Assembly: GCF_025628985.1 (NCBI RefSeq)
Contig: NZ_JAOTEM010000006.1
Location: 1-64,000, forward strand
DNA from: Chryseobacterium edaphi
GTDB taxonomy: Bacteria; Bacteroidota; Bacteroidia; Flavobacteriales; Weeksellaceae
DNA: 64,000 nucleotides
Direction: 5' to 3'
Made by a program: the position numbers and the translations under genes. Positions 1 to 21,446 of the stretch are shown piece by piece. The notes beneath the pieces are model-generated. The model searched no databases. It was given only the letters and a program-made list of their open reading frames with translations, and was not told the DNA's origin. Each line of letters opens with the position of its first letter. Positions within the stretch are counted from its first letter, which is position 1.

Positions 1-80
1 TGTTCCCATTCCGAACACAGAAGTTAAGCCCACCAGCGCCGATGGTACTGCGAAAGCGGGAGAGTAGGTCGCCGCCAGTC
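1..80 (+). rRNA. rrf: 5S ribosomal RNA, 3' part
   Basis: The first 80 bases read as the 3' two thirds of a bacterial 5S rRNA, including the CCGAACACAGAAGTTAAGCCC stretch (loop B to helix III) and the closing GGTCGCCGCCAG. The 5' end lies before the window. This is the end of an rRNA operon read on the plus strand. A terminator follows immediately. Confidence 0.93.
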
Positions 81-581: not shown

Positions 582-700
582 AATCGTCAATCGTCAATCG
601 TCAATCGTCAATCGTCAATCGTCAATCGTCAATCGTCAATCGTCAATCGTCAATCGTCAATCGTCAATCGTCAATCGCCAATCGTCAATCATCAATCATC
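582..700. repeat. Heptamer tandem repeat, 17 copies of AATCGTC
   Basis: Seventeen contiguous 7-bp units run from 582 to 700. Thirteen exact AATCGTC units are followed by AATCGCC, AATCGTC and two AATCATC, so decay is limited to one end. No reading frame is involved. The repeat lies in the gene-free stretch between the rRNA operon and the alpha-amylase gene. Confidence 0.95.
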
Positions 701-6244: not shown

Positions 6245-6985
6245 ATGGGAAGAGCGTTTGAATATAGAAAAGCTTCGAAAATGGCGCGTTGGGATAAAAT
6301 GGCCAAAACTTTTTCTAAAATAGGTAAAGATATTGCTTTAGCGGTAAAAGCAGGAGGTCCTGATGCGGAAGCTAATCCAGCATTGAGAAGATGTATCCAG
6401 AATGCGAAGGGTGCAAACATGCCAAAAGATAACGTTGAAAGAGCAATCAAAAAGGCGAGTGGTGCAGATGCAGAAAACTACGAAGAAATCAACTATGAAG
6501 GTTACGGACAAGGTGGTGTTGCATTTTTTGTAGAATGTACAACCAACAATACAACAAGAACTGTTGCCAACGTAAGAGCTATTTTCAACAAGTTTGATGG
6601 TAACTTAGGAAAGAATGGTGAATTAGCTTTCATCTTCGACAGAAAAGGGATTTTTAGTATTGATTTATCACAGATTAAAATGGATTGGGATGATTTCGAA
6701 ATGGAAATGATCGACGGCGGAGCAGAAGATGTAGAAAAAGATGATGAAGAAGTAATGATTACAACAGCATTTGAAGATTTCGGTTCTTTATCTCACAAAT
6801 TAGATGAACTTAAGATTGAAGTGAAAAGTGCAGAGCTTCAAAGAATTCCAAATAATATAAAAGAGGTTACAGCAGATCAATTTAAAGCAAATATGAAGAT
6901 GCTAGATCGTTTTGAAGAGGATGATGATGTGCAAAATGTATATCATAATATGGAAATTACAGACGAATTATTAGATTCTTTATAA
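6245..6985 (+). CDS. yebC: YebC/PmpR family protein
   Basis: A cytoplasmic protein of the TACO1/YebC family. Members act in translation through polyproline stretches, and some were described as DNA-binding regulators. The 246 residues start with the typical MGRAFEYRKASKMARWDKMA, continue with KIGKDIALAVKAGG and PKDNVERAIKKASG, and end in the acidic C-terminal part normal for the family. The length is standard. It is a single-gene unit with its own -7 element, and no transfer signs are seen. Confidence 0.93.
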   Translation: MGRAFEYRKASKMARWDKMAKTFSKIGKDIALAVKAGGPDAEANPALRRCIQNAKGANMPKDNVERAIKKASGADAENYEEINYEGYGQGGVAFFVECTTNNTTRTVANVRAIFNKFDGNLGKNGELAFIFDRKGIFSIDLSQIKMDWDDFEMEMIDGGAEDVEKDDEEVMITTAFEDFGSLSHKLDELKIEVKSAELQRIPNNIKEVTADQFKANMKMLDRFEEDDDVQNVYHNMEITDELLDSL

Positions 6986-7050
6986 AAGATAATATTTCAT
7001 TCATATACAGTTCATTTTCAATTAGTTTCTTTGCATAGAATCAATTGTGA

Positions 7051-7095
7051 GATCGCCATTCTTGGTAAATTAAAATACTAATTGATATGGCGGTC
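7051..7095. promoter_or_regulatory. Inverted repeat before the metallophosphoesterase gene
   Basis: GATCGCCAT (7051-7059) pairs with ATGGCGGTC (7087-7095) over nine positions with one G-T pair, across a 27-nt AT-rich centre. It lies 35 nt before the start codon and could be an operator or a leader hairpin. No other evidence supports either. Confidence 0.35.
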
Positions 7096-7130
7096 ACATT
7101 TTGATCATTTTAGTAAGCAAATATCTGCGA

Positions 7131-7955
7131 ATGAAAAGAAACGTTGAATTGGTTGTCATTTCGGATGTACATTTGGGAACTTACGGATGTAAGGCTAAAG
7201 AATTGTTGAGATATCTAAATTCTATTCAACCGAAGACCTTGGTTTTAAATGGTGATATTATTGATATCTGGCAATTTAAAAAGTCTTACTTCCCTAAACC
7301 TCATTTAAAGGTAATTAAGAAAATCATTTCATTTGCAACGAAATCTTCGGATGTGTATTACATTACAGGAAATCATGACGAAATGTTCAGAAAGTTTACC
7401 GATTTTGAATTAGGTAAATTAAAAGTCATCAATAAACTTCACTTAACTTTAAATGGAAAGAAAACCTGGATCTTTCACGGAGATGTTTTCGATGCCTCAG
7501 TTCAACATTCGAAATGGATTGCAAAATTGGGTGGAAAAGGATATGATCTGTTGATTGTCATCAATAACGTAGTCAATTGGTTTTTAGAAAAAATGGGAAG
7601 AGAAAAATATTCATTCTCAAAAAAGATCAAAAATAACGTCAAAAAAGCAGTTAAGTATATTGGCGATTTTGAATTGACTGCTTCCGAACTTGCCATTGAC
7701 AACGGATATGACTTTGTAATTTGCGGTCATATTCATCAACCGCAAATACGGGAAGTGAAAAACAAAAAAGGTTCATGTACCTATCTAAATTCTGGAGATT
7801 GGATTGAAAATCTTTCCGCTTTGGAATATAACAATGGTGAATGGAAAATCTTTTATTATGAAGATCATAAACATCTACTTAGTGATGATGAAACCGAAGA
7901 AATGCAGGATATGAATAATTCTGACCTTTTAAAAATAGTTACTCAATTTACTTAA
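7131..7955 (+). CDS. COG2908-type metallophosphoesterase (LpxH-like)
   Basis: A calcineurin-like phosphoesterase with all metal-binding motifs: SDVH (11-14), GD (41-42), GNHD (80-83), HGD (116-118) and GHIH (199-202). The family contains LpxH, which cleaves UDP-2,3-diacylglucosamine in lipid A synthesis. This 274-residue protein has an extra helical stretch (about 120-180), so another lipid-linked substrate is possible. I chose ATG 7131 over the upstream TTG at 7101, because SDVH then sits at the usual distance from the start. One base separates it from the glycosyltransferase gene, so the two are almost surely co-translated and may share a glycolipid pathway. Confidence 0.82.
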   Translation: MKRNVELVVISDVHLGTYGCKAKELLRYLNSIQPKTLVLNGDIIDIWQFKKSYFPKPHLKVIKKIISFATKSSDVYYITGNHDEMFRKFTDFELGKLKVINKLHLTLNGKKTWIFHGDVFDASVQHSKWIAKLGGKGYDLLIVINNVVNWFLEKMGREKYSFSKKIKNNVKKAVKYIGDFELTASELAIDNGYDFVICGHIHQPQIREVKNKKGSCTYLNSGDWIENLSALEYNNGEWKIFYYEDHKHLLSDDETEEMQDMNNSDLLKIVTQFT

Positions 7956-15204: not shown

Positions 15205-15636
15205 GTTGTAGTTATTAGGTAGCAGATTATAGTTTTAAGTTTTTAATATGGCGCATTTTAAAGAGCTTTTAGTTTGGCAGAAATCTATAAATTTTGTTAC
15301 AGAAATTTATAAAGAAACTGAATCTTTTCCAAAAACTGAAATGTATGGTTTAACTTCCCAAATAAGAAGAGCTACAGTTTCAATTCCTTCAAATATTGCT
15401 GAGGGAAATTCGAGAAGAAGTGTACTTGATTATTTGCAATTTCTAAGAATCTCAAGAGGAAGTTGTGCAGAAGTTGAAACACAATTAATTATATCAAAAA
15501 ATCTTGGTTTTTTAGATGAAGACAAATCTTTAAAACTAAATCAAGATATTATTGAAATTTCAAAAATGTTAAACGGTCTTATTACTTCTTTAATGCAATC
15601 AACGAATCTGCCTCCTAAAATCTAAAACCTGCAACC
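15204..15636. mobile_element. Putative four-helix-bundle gene cassette with inverted-repeat ends
   Basis: The gene at 15248-15625 is bounded by imperfect inverted repeats. GGTTGTAG...AGCAGATT (15204-15228) corresponds in reverse complement to AATCTGCC...GCAACC (15605-15636). The left arm overlaps the moxR stop codon and the right arm overlaps the end of the cassette gene. It sits between moxR and DUF58, which are usually adjacent. Mobility is inferred. No transposase is present and no target duplication was identified. Confidence 0.4.
15248..15625 (+). CDS. Four-helix-bundle protein (23S rRNA intervening-sequence protein family)
   Basis: The 125 residues carry the TIGR02436 hallmarks: LLVWQKSINFVTEIYK, FPKTEMYGLTSQIRRA, VSIPSNIAEG, and the helix ending LQFLRISRGSCAEVETQL. 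First described inside 23S rRNA intervening sequences, such proteins are common as stand-alone genes in Bacteroidota. Their function is unknown. The gene stands inside an otherwise conserved operon and is flanked by inverted repeats, suggesting insertion. Confidence 0.9.
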   Translation: MAHFKELLVWQKSINFVTEIYKETESFPKTEMYGLTSQIRRATVSIPSNIAEGNSRRSVLDYLQFLRISRGSCAEVETQLIISKNLGFLDEDKSLKLNQDIIEISKMLNGLITSLMQSTNLPPKI

Positions 15637-15643
15637 TTTAATA

Positions 15644-16966
15644 ATGAAAAACCTATACATCAACAATCGTTTTTTCTTCACGCTCATCGGAGTGGGAATT
15701 CTCTATGTTTTTGCATTTTTCTTTCCGTTTCTGATGATAGTAGGTCACATTATTTTGTTACTGGTTTTTCTTGCTGTTATGGTAGATTATCTGCTCTTAT
15801 TTAGAGAAAAAGATGGTGTTTTAGCACAAAGAATTCTACCTGAGAAATTATCTAATGGCGATGAAAATCCGGTAAAAGTCGATATTAAAAATAATTATAG
15901 TTTTAAAATCATTACCAAAATAATTGATGAAATCCCGTTTCAGTTTCAGAAGAGAGATTTTTTAATTGAAAAACAAATTGAGTCGGGAAAAAATACCTTG
16001 TTTCAATATATTCTTGAGCCCAAAGAAAGAGGAGAATACAATTTTGGAGCTTTAAATATTTTTGCTTCATCTCCTTTAGGTTTTGTTTCTAAAAGATTTA
16101 CTTTTCAGAAAGATGCATTTTTGCCGGCTTATCCGTCATTTATTCATTTGAGAAAATATGAATTAATGGCTTTGCAAAACGAATTTCTGCTCGGAGGAAT
16201 CAAAAAAATCAGAAAGCTTGGGCACACCATGGAGTTTGAGCAGATCAAAGAATATGTTCCCGGAGATGACGTAAGAACCATCAACTGGAAAGCAACTTCC
16301 AAAACAAACCGACTGATGGTCAATCAATTCCAGGATGAAAAAGCACAGCGTGTTTTTATGTTGATTGATAAAGGCAGAACCATGAAAATGCCATTCAAGA
16401 AATTAAGTCTTTTGGATTATTCGATTAACGCAACGATGGCTTTGTCACATATTATTCTTAAAAAAGGTGATCGTGCCGGAATGATGACATTTTCTAAAAA
16501 AACGGAAAATAAAGTTGCAGCGGATAACAAATCGGGACAGTTGAGAAAAATTTCGGAATCGCTTTATAATATTAAAACAGATTTTTTTGAAAGTGATTTC
16601 AACAGGCTTTATCAGGATGTGAAATTTTCATTGAATCAGAGAAGTCTGGTTTTGCTTTTTACGAATTTTGAAACTTTAGACGCTTTAAACCGTCAGATGA
16701 AATATCTTCGTGGGATTGCAAAAAACCATTTATTGGTAGTGGTTTTCTTTAAAAATTCTGAATTGCAGACTTTGCTTCACAAAAATCCCGAGAGTATGCA
16801 GGAAATTTATGATGAAGTAATTGCTGAAAAATTTGAATTTGAGAAGAAACTCATCATTCAGGAGTTGAGAAAGTATGGAATTTATTCTGTCTATACACTT
16901 CCTGAAAATCTAAACGTGGAGGTAATCAATAAATATCTGGAAATAAAAGCGAGGGGGATTTTGTAA
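15644..16966 (+). CDS. DUF58 domain protein, partner of MoxR
   Basis: The 440 residues have two membrane helices near the N-terminus (about 8-45), an extracytoplasmic or Ig-like middle region, and the DUF58 core with PGDDVRTINWKATSK (about 205-220). The von Willebrand-like part that follows begins LIDKGRTMKM. A standard metal site would read DxSxS, so this site is degenerate. DUF58 proteins are the expected partners of MoxR. The stop codon overlaps the -7 element of the next gene. Confidence 0.9.
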   Translation: MKNLYINNRFFFTLIGVGILYVFAFFFPFLMIVGHIILLLVFLAVMVDYLLLFREKDGVLAQRILPEKLSNGDENPVKVDIKNNYSFKIITKIIDEIPFQFQKRDFLIEKQIESGKNTLFQYILEPKERGEYNFGALNIFASSPLGFVSKRFTFQKDAFLPAYPSFIHLRKYELMALQNEFLLGGIKKIRKLGHTMEFEQIKEYVPGDDVRTINWKATSKTNRLMVNQFQDEKAQRVFMLIDKGRTMKMPFKKLSLLDYSINATMALSHIILKKGDRAGMMTFSKKTENKVAADNKSGQLRKISESLYNIKTDFFESDFNRLYQDVKFSLNQRSLVLLFTNFETLDALNRQMKYLRGIAKNHLLVVVFFKNSELQTLLHKNPESMQEIYDEVIAEKFEFEKKLIIQELRKYGIYSVYTLPENLNVEVINKYLEIKARGIL

Positions 16967-16971
16967 CTTTG
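16964..16971 (+). promoter_or_regulatory. -7 element of the osmC promoter
   Basis: TAACTTTG matches TAnnTTTG, overlaps the DUF58 stop codon and is followed at once by the heptamer array. Confidence 0.55.
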
Positions 16972-17012
16972 CAATAAGCAATAAGCAATAAGCAATAAGC
17001 AATAAGCAATAA
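16971..17012 (+). repeat. Heptamer tandem repeat, six copies of GCAATAA
   Basis: Six perfect 7-bp units fill exactly the space from the last base of the -7 element to the first base of the osmC ATG. The leader of osmC, if transcribed from this promoter, consists almost wholly of the repeat. Confidence 0.95.
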
Positions 17013-17437
17013 TGAAAATATCACTCAACCGAATCAACGACGACTTTTTATTTGAATGCACCAATTCACAGGGAAATTCAATTCTTTTAGATAACACTTC
17101 TCAACCAGGCGCGAAAGGAGTTTCACCAATGGAAAGTGTAATGATGGCAGTTGCAGGTTGCAGCGGTATTGATGTCGTTTCAATTCTGAAAAAACAAAGA
17201 CAGGAAATCACAGATTTTAGAGCAGAGGTAGAAGGTGAAAGAGTTCCTGTAGAAGATGCAAAACCATTCAAATCGATGATGGTTAAGTTTTTCTTAGAAG
17301 GAACGATCGATCCTAAAAAAGCATTGAAAGCATCAGAATTATCTTTCGAAAAATATTGTTCAGTTTCAAAAACATTAGAACCCAACGTAGAAATTGGTTA
17401 CGAAGTTTATGTAAACGGAGAAAAAGTGGAGGGATAG
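17012..17437 (+). CDS. OsmC family peroxiredoxin-like protein
   Basis: OsmC/Ohr-type proteins reduce organic hydroperoxides with two conserved cysteines. Both are visible here: Cys50 in VAGCSGID and Cys116 in KYCSVSKTL. The 141-residue length is normal. It has its own -7 element, so it is probably not part of the DUF58 operon. The substrate (lipid peroxide or other) is not evident. Confidence 0.92.
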   Translation: MKISLNRINDDFLFECTNSQGNSILLDNTSQPGAKGVSPMESVMMAVAGCSGIDVVSILKKQRQEITDFRAEVEGERVPVEDAKPFKSMMVKFFLEGTIDPKKALKASELSFEKYCSVSKTLEPNVEIGYEVYVNGEKVEG

Positions 17438-20303: not shown

Positions 20304-20332
20304 CACCATTCGATCATTCACATATTGAAAAT

Positions 20333-20439
20333 GTTATCAAGAAAGGTTGAGGGACAGACCCTGTGAAACCTTAGCAACCCTTTGCGCAAGCGAAGAAGGT
20401 GCTACGTTCTACCAAATAATTTTATTTTGGACAGATAAC
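20333..20439 (+). ncRNA. SAM-I riboswitch (S-box leader)
   Basis: The aptamer is recognisable by the GAGGGAC, CCCTGTGAAACC, TTAGCAACC and GAAGGTGCTACGTTCTACC blocks typical of S-box RNAs. The closing helix P1 is perfect: GTTATC (20333-20338) with GATAAC (20434-20439). S-adenosylmethionine binding should lower expression of the methionine genes downstream. Confidence 0.93.
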
Positions 20440-20442
20440 TTA

Positions 20443-20507: not shown

Positions 20508-21446
20508 TTGAAAACAGAACTGCAACATATTAATTTCCCGTATCAAACCGATTCCCAAAAGGAATACGATATCTCATTAAGCTATCAGCTTTTTGGGAAA
20601 CACCTGTTTTCTGCACCCATCATTTTAGTCAATCATGCATTAACCGGAAATTCAAACGTGGCCGGAGAAAAGGGTTGGTGGAAACAGTTGATTGGTGAAA
20701 ATCAGGTAATTGATACCAATAAATATACAGTACTTTGTTTCAATATTCCCGGAAACGGATATGATGATTTTTTAATTGACGACTGGTCAGATTTCACGCC
20801 TTCAGACATAGCAAATATTTTTCTGAAAGGTCTTGAAATTTTACATATTAAAAACCTTTACGCCATAATCGGAGGCTCGCTGGGAGGTGGAATTGGCTGG
20901 GAAATGCTGGCTAAAAATCCAGATTTGGCAGAGCTTTTTATTCCGATTGCCTGTGATTCTAAAACCCATGATTGGTTACACGCCCAATGTCTGGTTCAGA
21001 AATTTTTATTAAACGGAAATGATGAGCCACTGCAGAAAGCAAGAATTCATGCGATGCTGTGCTACAGAACACCTCAATCTTTAAACGATAGATTTCAAAA
21101 TACATTCAATCTTGAAAAACAAAAGTTAGAATCGGAAGACTGGCTGGATTATCATGGGAAATCTCTTGCCGAAAGATTTAGTTTAAAATCTTATCAGTTG
21201 ATGAACCATTTGCTGATGAACATTAATGTTAACGATAAAGATTTAGGTAAAATAAAAGCACGAATGCACATGATCTCTGTAGATACCGATCTTTTTTTTC
21301 CGGCTTCTGAAATCCGAATGTGTTTTAATAGACTGAAAGCTGAAAAAGACGATGTTTTCTACCACGAGATCAAATCAATTCATGGGCACGACGCCTTTTT
21401 AATGGAATACGAACAGTTAAATTATATCATAAAAAATATTTTGTAG
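20508..21446 (+). CDS. metX: Homoserine O-acetyltransferase (MetX type)
   Basis: Activates homoserine with an acetyl group (or succinyl group in some members), the first step to methionine. It is an alpha/beta hydrolase fold protein of 312 residues with NHALTGNS (42-49), nucleophile Ser124 in GGSLGGG, Asp261 before FFP, and His294 in HGHDAFL. It is shorter than many MetX proteins. The start is TTG at 20508, because no ATG lies in frame upstream in the leader. It is preceded by the SAM riboswitch and directly abuts the next gene (stop TAG, then ATG). Confidence 0.9.
   Translation: MKTELQHINFPYQTDSQKEYDISLSYQLFGKHLFSAPIILVNHALTGNSNVAGEKGWWKQLIGENQVIDTNKYTVLCFNIPGNGYDDFLIDDWSDFTPSDIANIFLKGLEILHIKNLYAIIGGSLGGGIGWEMLAKNPDLAELFIPIACDSKTHDWLHAQCLVQKFLLNGNDEPLQKARIHAMLCYRTPQSLNDRFQNTFNLEKQKLESEDWLDYHGKSLAERFSLKSYQLMNHLLMNINVNDKDLGKIKARMHMISVDTDLFFPASEIRMCFNRLKAEKDDVFYHEIKSIHGHDAFLMEYEQLNYIIKNIL

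Follow-up and report, generated by a model that had tools for sequence, protein, structure and literature searches.

The osmC gene of the window (the whole stretch of 64,000 nt that was analysed) stands at the end of a gene row that codes, in order, for a MoxR-type AAA protein, a four-helix-bundle protein, a DUF58-domain protein and the OsmC-family protein. The gene of the four-helix-bundle protein, of the 23S rRNA-intervening-sequence type, occupies window positions 15248-15625, between the MoxR-type and DUF58 genes. The osmC product matched the Pfam family given below; against the NCBIfam OsmC-family model it scored 79 bits, under the model cut-off of 138. Among the matches listed, the best 80 named OsmC relatives were all titled Chryseobacterium, so that the window is probably Chryseobacterium-like. 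The features that matter for the analysis are as follows.

15644..16966, plus strand: DUF58-domain gene, 440 aa (Pfam PF01882, E 5.9e-20), upstream of osmC
16964..16971, plus strand: putative -7 promoter element TAACTTTG, matching the consensus TAHHTTTG
16971..17012, plus strand: exact heptamer array (GCAATAA)x6, read from the sequence, most of it predicted 5' leader
16976..16977, plus strand: predicted transcription start at the end of copy 1, placed by the 4-5 nt spacing of F. johnsoniae
17012..17437, plus strand: OsmC-family gene, 141 aa (Pfam PF02566, E 1.5e-17)

These elements share bases at every junction. The DUF58 gene stops at the TAA of TAACTTTG (16964-16966), the array opens with the G of this element (16971), and the ATG at 17012-17014 has its A in common with the end of copy 6 (17012). 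Repeat analysis of 16971-17012 gave a period of 7, 6.0 copies and 100% matches. Thus, the sequence-only reading was right that six exact GCAATAA copies span the distance from the -7 element to the ATG and that the last copy provides its A; the start it gave, 16964, is that of TAACTTTG, and the array itself starts at 16971. Near-identical tandem 7-nt units beyond chance length place the osmC array among the heptanucleotide long simple sequence repeats (LSSRs). The genome has three GCAATAA arrays and 0 matches to a control pattern in which the unit is read backward; therefore, the array is not a product of chance.

In F. johnsoniae the -7 consensus is TAHHTTTG, transcription starts 4-5 nt downstream of it, and the -33 element is weak (PMC6847099). 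No -33 element was obvious by eye upstream of the -7 element of osmC, and it is also much less evident in F. johnsoniae. If the F. johnsoniae spacing applies, the osmC RNA would have a leader of about 35-36 nt, made of the last 1-2 bases of copy 1 and of copies 2-6 minus the final A. This predicted length is close to the average 5' leader in F. johnsoniae, 33 nt (PMC6847099); the leaders reported for F. psychrophilum have a median of 24 and an average of 65 (PMC9723704).

Among the 65 loci where a DUF58 gene precedes osmC, HTTTG follows the stop codon TAA in 62 (the exceptions are L024, L074 and L093). The first base of HTTTG in these 62 loci was T in 33, C in 24, A in 5 and never G. Since this stretch lies outside the coding sequence, its constancy points to a promoter function. 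We also observed that the -7 element was retained in some species where osmC is located away from DUF58 (L098, L011 and L018); in other such species, e.g. L002 and L007, no such element was seen near the gene.

The copy number of the array was compared in genome collections with one genome per species. Arrays of at least three heptamer copies were present at the osmC site in 17 of the 80 named Chryseobacterium loci, with the unit GCAATAA in 8, GCAACAA in 6 and ACTCATT in 3, and were absent from the remaining 63. A larger set of 95 distinct osmC loci, defined by a start-motif filter and including three loci fetched by array searches (L127, L141 and L155), had at least three copies in 26 loci and 2 to 2.9 copies in 10. 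The exact architecture TTT(unit)nTG was found in 13 of the 95, with n = 4, 4, 5, 5, 6, 6, 9, 9, 10, 10, 11, 12 and 17. Two of these loci, L127 and L155, came from an array search, and in L079 the last unit is GCAATAA, preceded by three GCAACAA.

On a tree of the 65 DUF58-linked loci, there are four sister pairs in which both members carry osmC arrays, and in none of them do the two members have the same n (10/17, 12/4, 14/9 and 5/6); two of the four pairs contain L127 or L155, and the 12/4 pair differs in the repeat unit, too. The label 'array' needs 4 changes on this tree when only array and two-copy rows are counted, 36 rows being in neither group; the linked loci with fewer than two exact tandem copies are likewise 36 of the 65, so that an array is missing in many species. 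A two-copy leader, TTTGYAGAAGCAATAAGCAATAAATA, is common to seven loci and could be a ready seed for an array: L053, with 10 copies, sits in a clade that contains six of the seven. The nearest tree neighbours of the window (support 98/56 and 99/56) are L093, with a scrambled 223-nt leader, and L100, whose 22-nt leader is free of exact tandem copies. Judged from these sequences, the copy number of the osmC array turns over between species. Related genomes differ at osmC by whole units (n = 4-17), as is typical of LSSRs. The suggestion that the leader changes by whole heptamers while the -7 element and the ATG stay intact holds between species, given the 13 of 95 loci with n = 4-17, the -7 element in 62 of 65 loci and the differences in 4 of 4 sister pairs.

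To the translation start, n appears to make little difference in predicted structure. In one folding model, in which transcription was set to begin at base 3 of copy 1, the predicted mean unpaired probability at positions -15 to +15 was 0.70-0.73 for n = 1-17, and the folding energies of the leader with the gene start lay between 0 and -9.3 kcal/mol. The idea that the osmC leader holds a structural switch was considered and dropped; folding over n = 1-17 gave no sign of it, and no Rfam family matched at the array. Elsewhere in the window, Rfam identified a SAM riboswitch (RF00162, 83.6 bits) at 20331-20441, upstream of an ORF at 20508. Since 63 of the 80 named relatives are without an array of at least three copies and the predicted openness is flat, n is not tightly constrained.

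We favour, with moderate confidence, the following explanation. The array would be a heptanucleotide microsatellite, one member of a Chryseobacterium family of GCAATAA arrays, and would serve as the 5' leader of an osmC mRNA whose sigma-A promoter has its -7 element overlapping the stop codon of DUF58. Whole 7-nt units would be gained or lost by strand slippage. Since the -7 element closes the array on one side and the start codon on the other, a change of this kind should not touch the promoter, the bases transcribed first or the context of the translation start as long as n is about 2 or more; n would alter only how long the middle part of an unstructured, A-rich leader is. With these parts constant, the likeliest outcome is a buffered and mostly tolerated variation in length that affects expression modestly at most, a near-neutral effect being what the one folding model suggests. 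Points against this explanation are the inconspicuous -33 element, the many species that lack an array, and the species, such as L002 and L007, in which osmC lies away from DUF58 and has no such -7 element nearby.

Alternatively, along the lines of the tuning of translation that the sequence-only reading suggested, the array could act as a rheostat, the copy number setting the OsmC level through leader length, ribosome standby or mRNA stability, and slippage producing a mixed population. The position of the repeat and its variation by whole units fit this idea. Yet the flat predicted openness of the start argues against it, as does the span of n among relatives, from 2 to 17 with the array absent in others; besides, OsmC is not known to be one of the surface structures that commonly undergo phase variation. 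We consider a rheostat unlikely. It does have a precedent in the 5' leader of uspA2 in Moraxella catarrhalis, where a variable-copy AGAT repeat also lies between promoter and start codon; leaders with 6-23 copies are described, with the best expression at 18 in one strain (PMC4679880). The uspA2 repeat is a tetranucleotide before a gene for a surface protein and has a shown effect on expression (PMC4679880), whereas the osmC array is a heptamer before a gene for OsmC, and its effect on expression is hypothetical. In sabA of Helicobacter pylori, too, a simple repeat is described as grading expression, by a rheostat-like mechanism (PMC4081817). Whichever effect n has, the osmC leaders form a natural series in which one unstructured unit is present 2-17 times while the promoter end and the start codon on either side stay fixed. 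Shine-Dalgarno sequences are described as lacking in the phylum (PMC6847099), and such a series makes effects of leader length directly testable.

The array could also be a plain intercistronic spacer, i.e. a neutral microsatellite in a gene gap, with osmC read from the DUF58 operon and TAnnTTTG having no role. The two genes are codirectional and only 45 nt apart, the -33 element is inconspicuous, and heptanucleotide LSSRs are a common class in bacteria, for which slippage was proposed (PMC4679880, citing Mrazek et al. 2007). Such a spacer does not account for the HTTTG that follows the stop codon in nearly all linked loci and never begins with G, a constancy that coding leaves without explanation, nor for the -7 elements retained where osmC is not beside DUF58. 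We regard this option as quite improbable.

The favoured explanation makes the osmC array one member of a family, and we observed this family widely in the genus. Of 98 Chryseobacterium-type genomes, all from the genus of the window, 52 contained at least three tandem GCAATAA copies. In a family-wide draw, such arrays were present in 33 of 197 genomes and in 3 of 33 genera (29 of 50 genomes in the genus of the window, 2 in g9 and 2 in g26). By flank similarity, 72 distinct GCAATAA and GCAACAA arrays fell into 17 loci; the osmC site is one of these 17, and arrays of this type are not peculiar to osmC.

In many cases, and in both orientations, a GCAATAA array has a -7-like element at its beginning. 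With one GCAATAA member scored per locus, an exact TAnnTTTG was found at the array edge, pointing inward, in 10 of the 17 loci. Of the others, five had one mismatch (L032, L130, L150, L160 and L161) and two had two (L163 and L166). The locus L125/L142/L151/L165 was scored by L142, while L125 and L165 are without an exact match; L128 carries a G that the refined consensus does not allow, and a strict count with the other member would give 8 of 17. At random intergenic positions (n = 12,000), an exact match occurred in 5.1% and a match within one mismatch in 41%, 36% having one mismatch; permuted heptamers had an exact -7 in 108 of 1937 cases. The control by single GCAATAA words matters, since the array edges themselves supply letters of the motif (G or GC). 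Single intergenic words had an exact -7 in 4 of 51 cases and one within one mismatch in 25 of 51; compared with these, the arrays are enriched with Fisher p = 4e-5 for exact matches and 0.005 within one mismatch. The idea that anchoring arises merely because GCAATAA often follows a -7 element was not supported by this comparison (4 of 51 single words versus 10 of 17 array loci).

Genus-wide searches of 148 genomes for anchored arrays gave a similar picture. The pattern TANNTTT(GCAATAA)3 had 30 sites in 24 genomes and TANNTTTGC(TTATTGC)2 had 53 sites in 48 genomes, many of these sites being the same locus in different species; the control patterns, with AT in place of TA, had 0 and 0 sites. A free position was occupied by G, which TAHHTTTG disallows, in 9 of the 83 anchored sites (6 and 3, respectively). 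From 60 fetched loci (the 30 sense sites and 30 of the 53 antisense sites) we read 57 distinct arrays. These represent 14 loci: 5 are sense to the unit and 9 antisense, the latter including two with only 2 full copies. Assuming that TA and AT are equally likely, 14 versus 0 loci corresponds to a probability of about 6e-5.

All three arrays of this genome are anchored: the one at osmC, one at the end of an SDR gene (C6; the gene was named from its sequence and is presumably an SDR) and one at the end of a 163-aa ORF (C8). Each has 6 full copies, and a mechanism producing equal lengths was considered and dropped; with partial units included, the arrays measure 42, 49 and 48 nt. Dispersal of the arrays as one mobile element was not supported either, as the flanks differ between loci beyond the motif.

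A regulator that binds the repeated GCAATAA as RNA or DNA, the arrays marking its regulon, would suit a single unit family at many unrelated genes of the genus (the 52 of 98 genomes above), the -7-like elements at 3 of 3 arrays of this genome and the regulon proposed for TAACTGA repeats in Beggiatoaceae (PMC4679880), yet we find it very improbable, given that the unit at the osmC site varies (GCAATAA, GCAACAA and ACTCATT), that 63 of 80 named species have no array of at least three copies at osmC, and that the arrays run in both directions with respect to the -7, so that the RNA would carry GCAAUAA at some loci and UUAUUGC at others.

Those TAACTGA direct repeats, described in Beggiatoaceae, Cyanobacteria and five Bacteroidetes (MacGregor 2015, PMC4679880), are the closest described case that we found to the favoured microsatellite leader. 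Like the osmC array, they are heptamers just upstream of start codons with no particular RNA structure predicted, and two strains differ mostly in 7-nt steps (PMC4679880). The unit GCAATAA and the taxon are different. Promoter anchoring is not among the features noted for the TAACTGA repeats (PMC4679880), whereas many Chryseobacterium arrays are anchored, some of them after the end of a gene to which the -7 is antisense. The likeness to the LSSR heptamers of prokaryotes as described there lies in the tandem 7-nt units; unlike these, the arrays here belong to one unit family that is found repeatedly within a single genus, and many of them have a sigma-A -7-like element at their start. Among the matches listed for literature on heptamer and simple repeats in Chryseobacterium, Bacteroidetes and bacteria, where subscription journals are little covered, no title described the GCAATAA family. 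Its promoter anchoring is the new part; heptamer repeats and repeats in 5' leaders were already known.

That a repeat family is tied to -7-like elements suggests that the growth of repeats is connected with the initiation of transcription. In its strongest form, which we regard as speculative and rather unlikely, initiation itself would seed and drive the arrays: the melted -7/start region would be a hot spot of 7-nt slippage, microsatellites would grow from active -7 elements either way, and the array sites would be a fossil record of promoters, including antisense promoters, absent from the annotation, that follow the ends of genes such as those for pyruvate kinase and SDR. In practical terms, GCAATAA arrays could flag promoters that annotation missed.

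Several antisense anchored arrays lie behind a gene end, beside a terminator-like hairpin (by eye). The largest antisense cluster is behind a gene that we take from its sequence to be pyruvate kinase, the ORF having been read in L126 only. In 12 fetched loci (L126, L129, L135 and nine others), 4-9 GCAATAA copies follow the stop codon of this gene; a terminator-like hairpin and an antisense TAnnTTTGC, which is conserved, accompany them. Three loci of one sense cluster were checked: in two, the array comes immediately after 5S rRNA, and the third begins at a contig end. In L265 and L151, GCAATAA arrays on a -7-like element directly follow 5S rRNA. Genome G127 has five such places, with two sets about 6.4 kb apart, like tandem rRNA operons.

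Heptamers are not the only class of repeats here, and a claim that they are would be too strong, since 5-, 6- and 8-mers occur. At a threshold of at least 3 copies, 7 is the commonest period among periods of at least 5, with 17 of the 32 heptamer arrays in the sampled loci belonging, besides the window's own, to the osmC site on which those loci centre; at 2.5 copies, 5- and 6-mers outnumber 7-mers in the samples examined. For example, 8-mer arrays AATGTAAC / TAACAATG of about 6-14 copies occur at a similar position, near 6900-7340, in four species (L025, L041, L058 and L060). On C6 of this genome (L177:12260-12447), an AATAGGT x6.3 array (7-mer) is followed by an 8-mer array, AATCTTTT x16; these repeats sit just upstream of the -7-like TATCTTTGCAAAATG, i.e. 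before the element.

The notion that every heptamer array is promoter-anchored was rejected. Arrays of other units, at least 25 nt long, made up 18 rows, three of them being the osmC locus of L004-L006. Of these rows, only 2 had an exact -7 at the edge, those at window 582 and in L124; five more had one mismatch at the first edge and four more only at the other edge, against the background of 36% of random positions with one mismatch. The array at window 582-697, AATCGTC x16.6, directly follows TAATTTTGCAT and lies about 500 nt behind the apparent end of a 5S rRNA gene (as read from window 1-80). In L124:1501-1619, two arrays follow in succession, each behind TAATTTTG: (GCAATAA)5 and then CATAAGC x10.7, which ends near an ATG.
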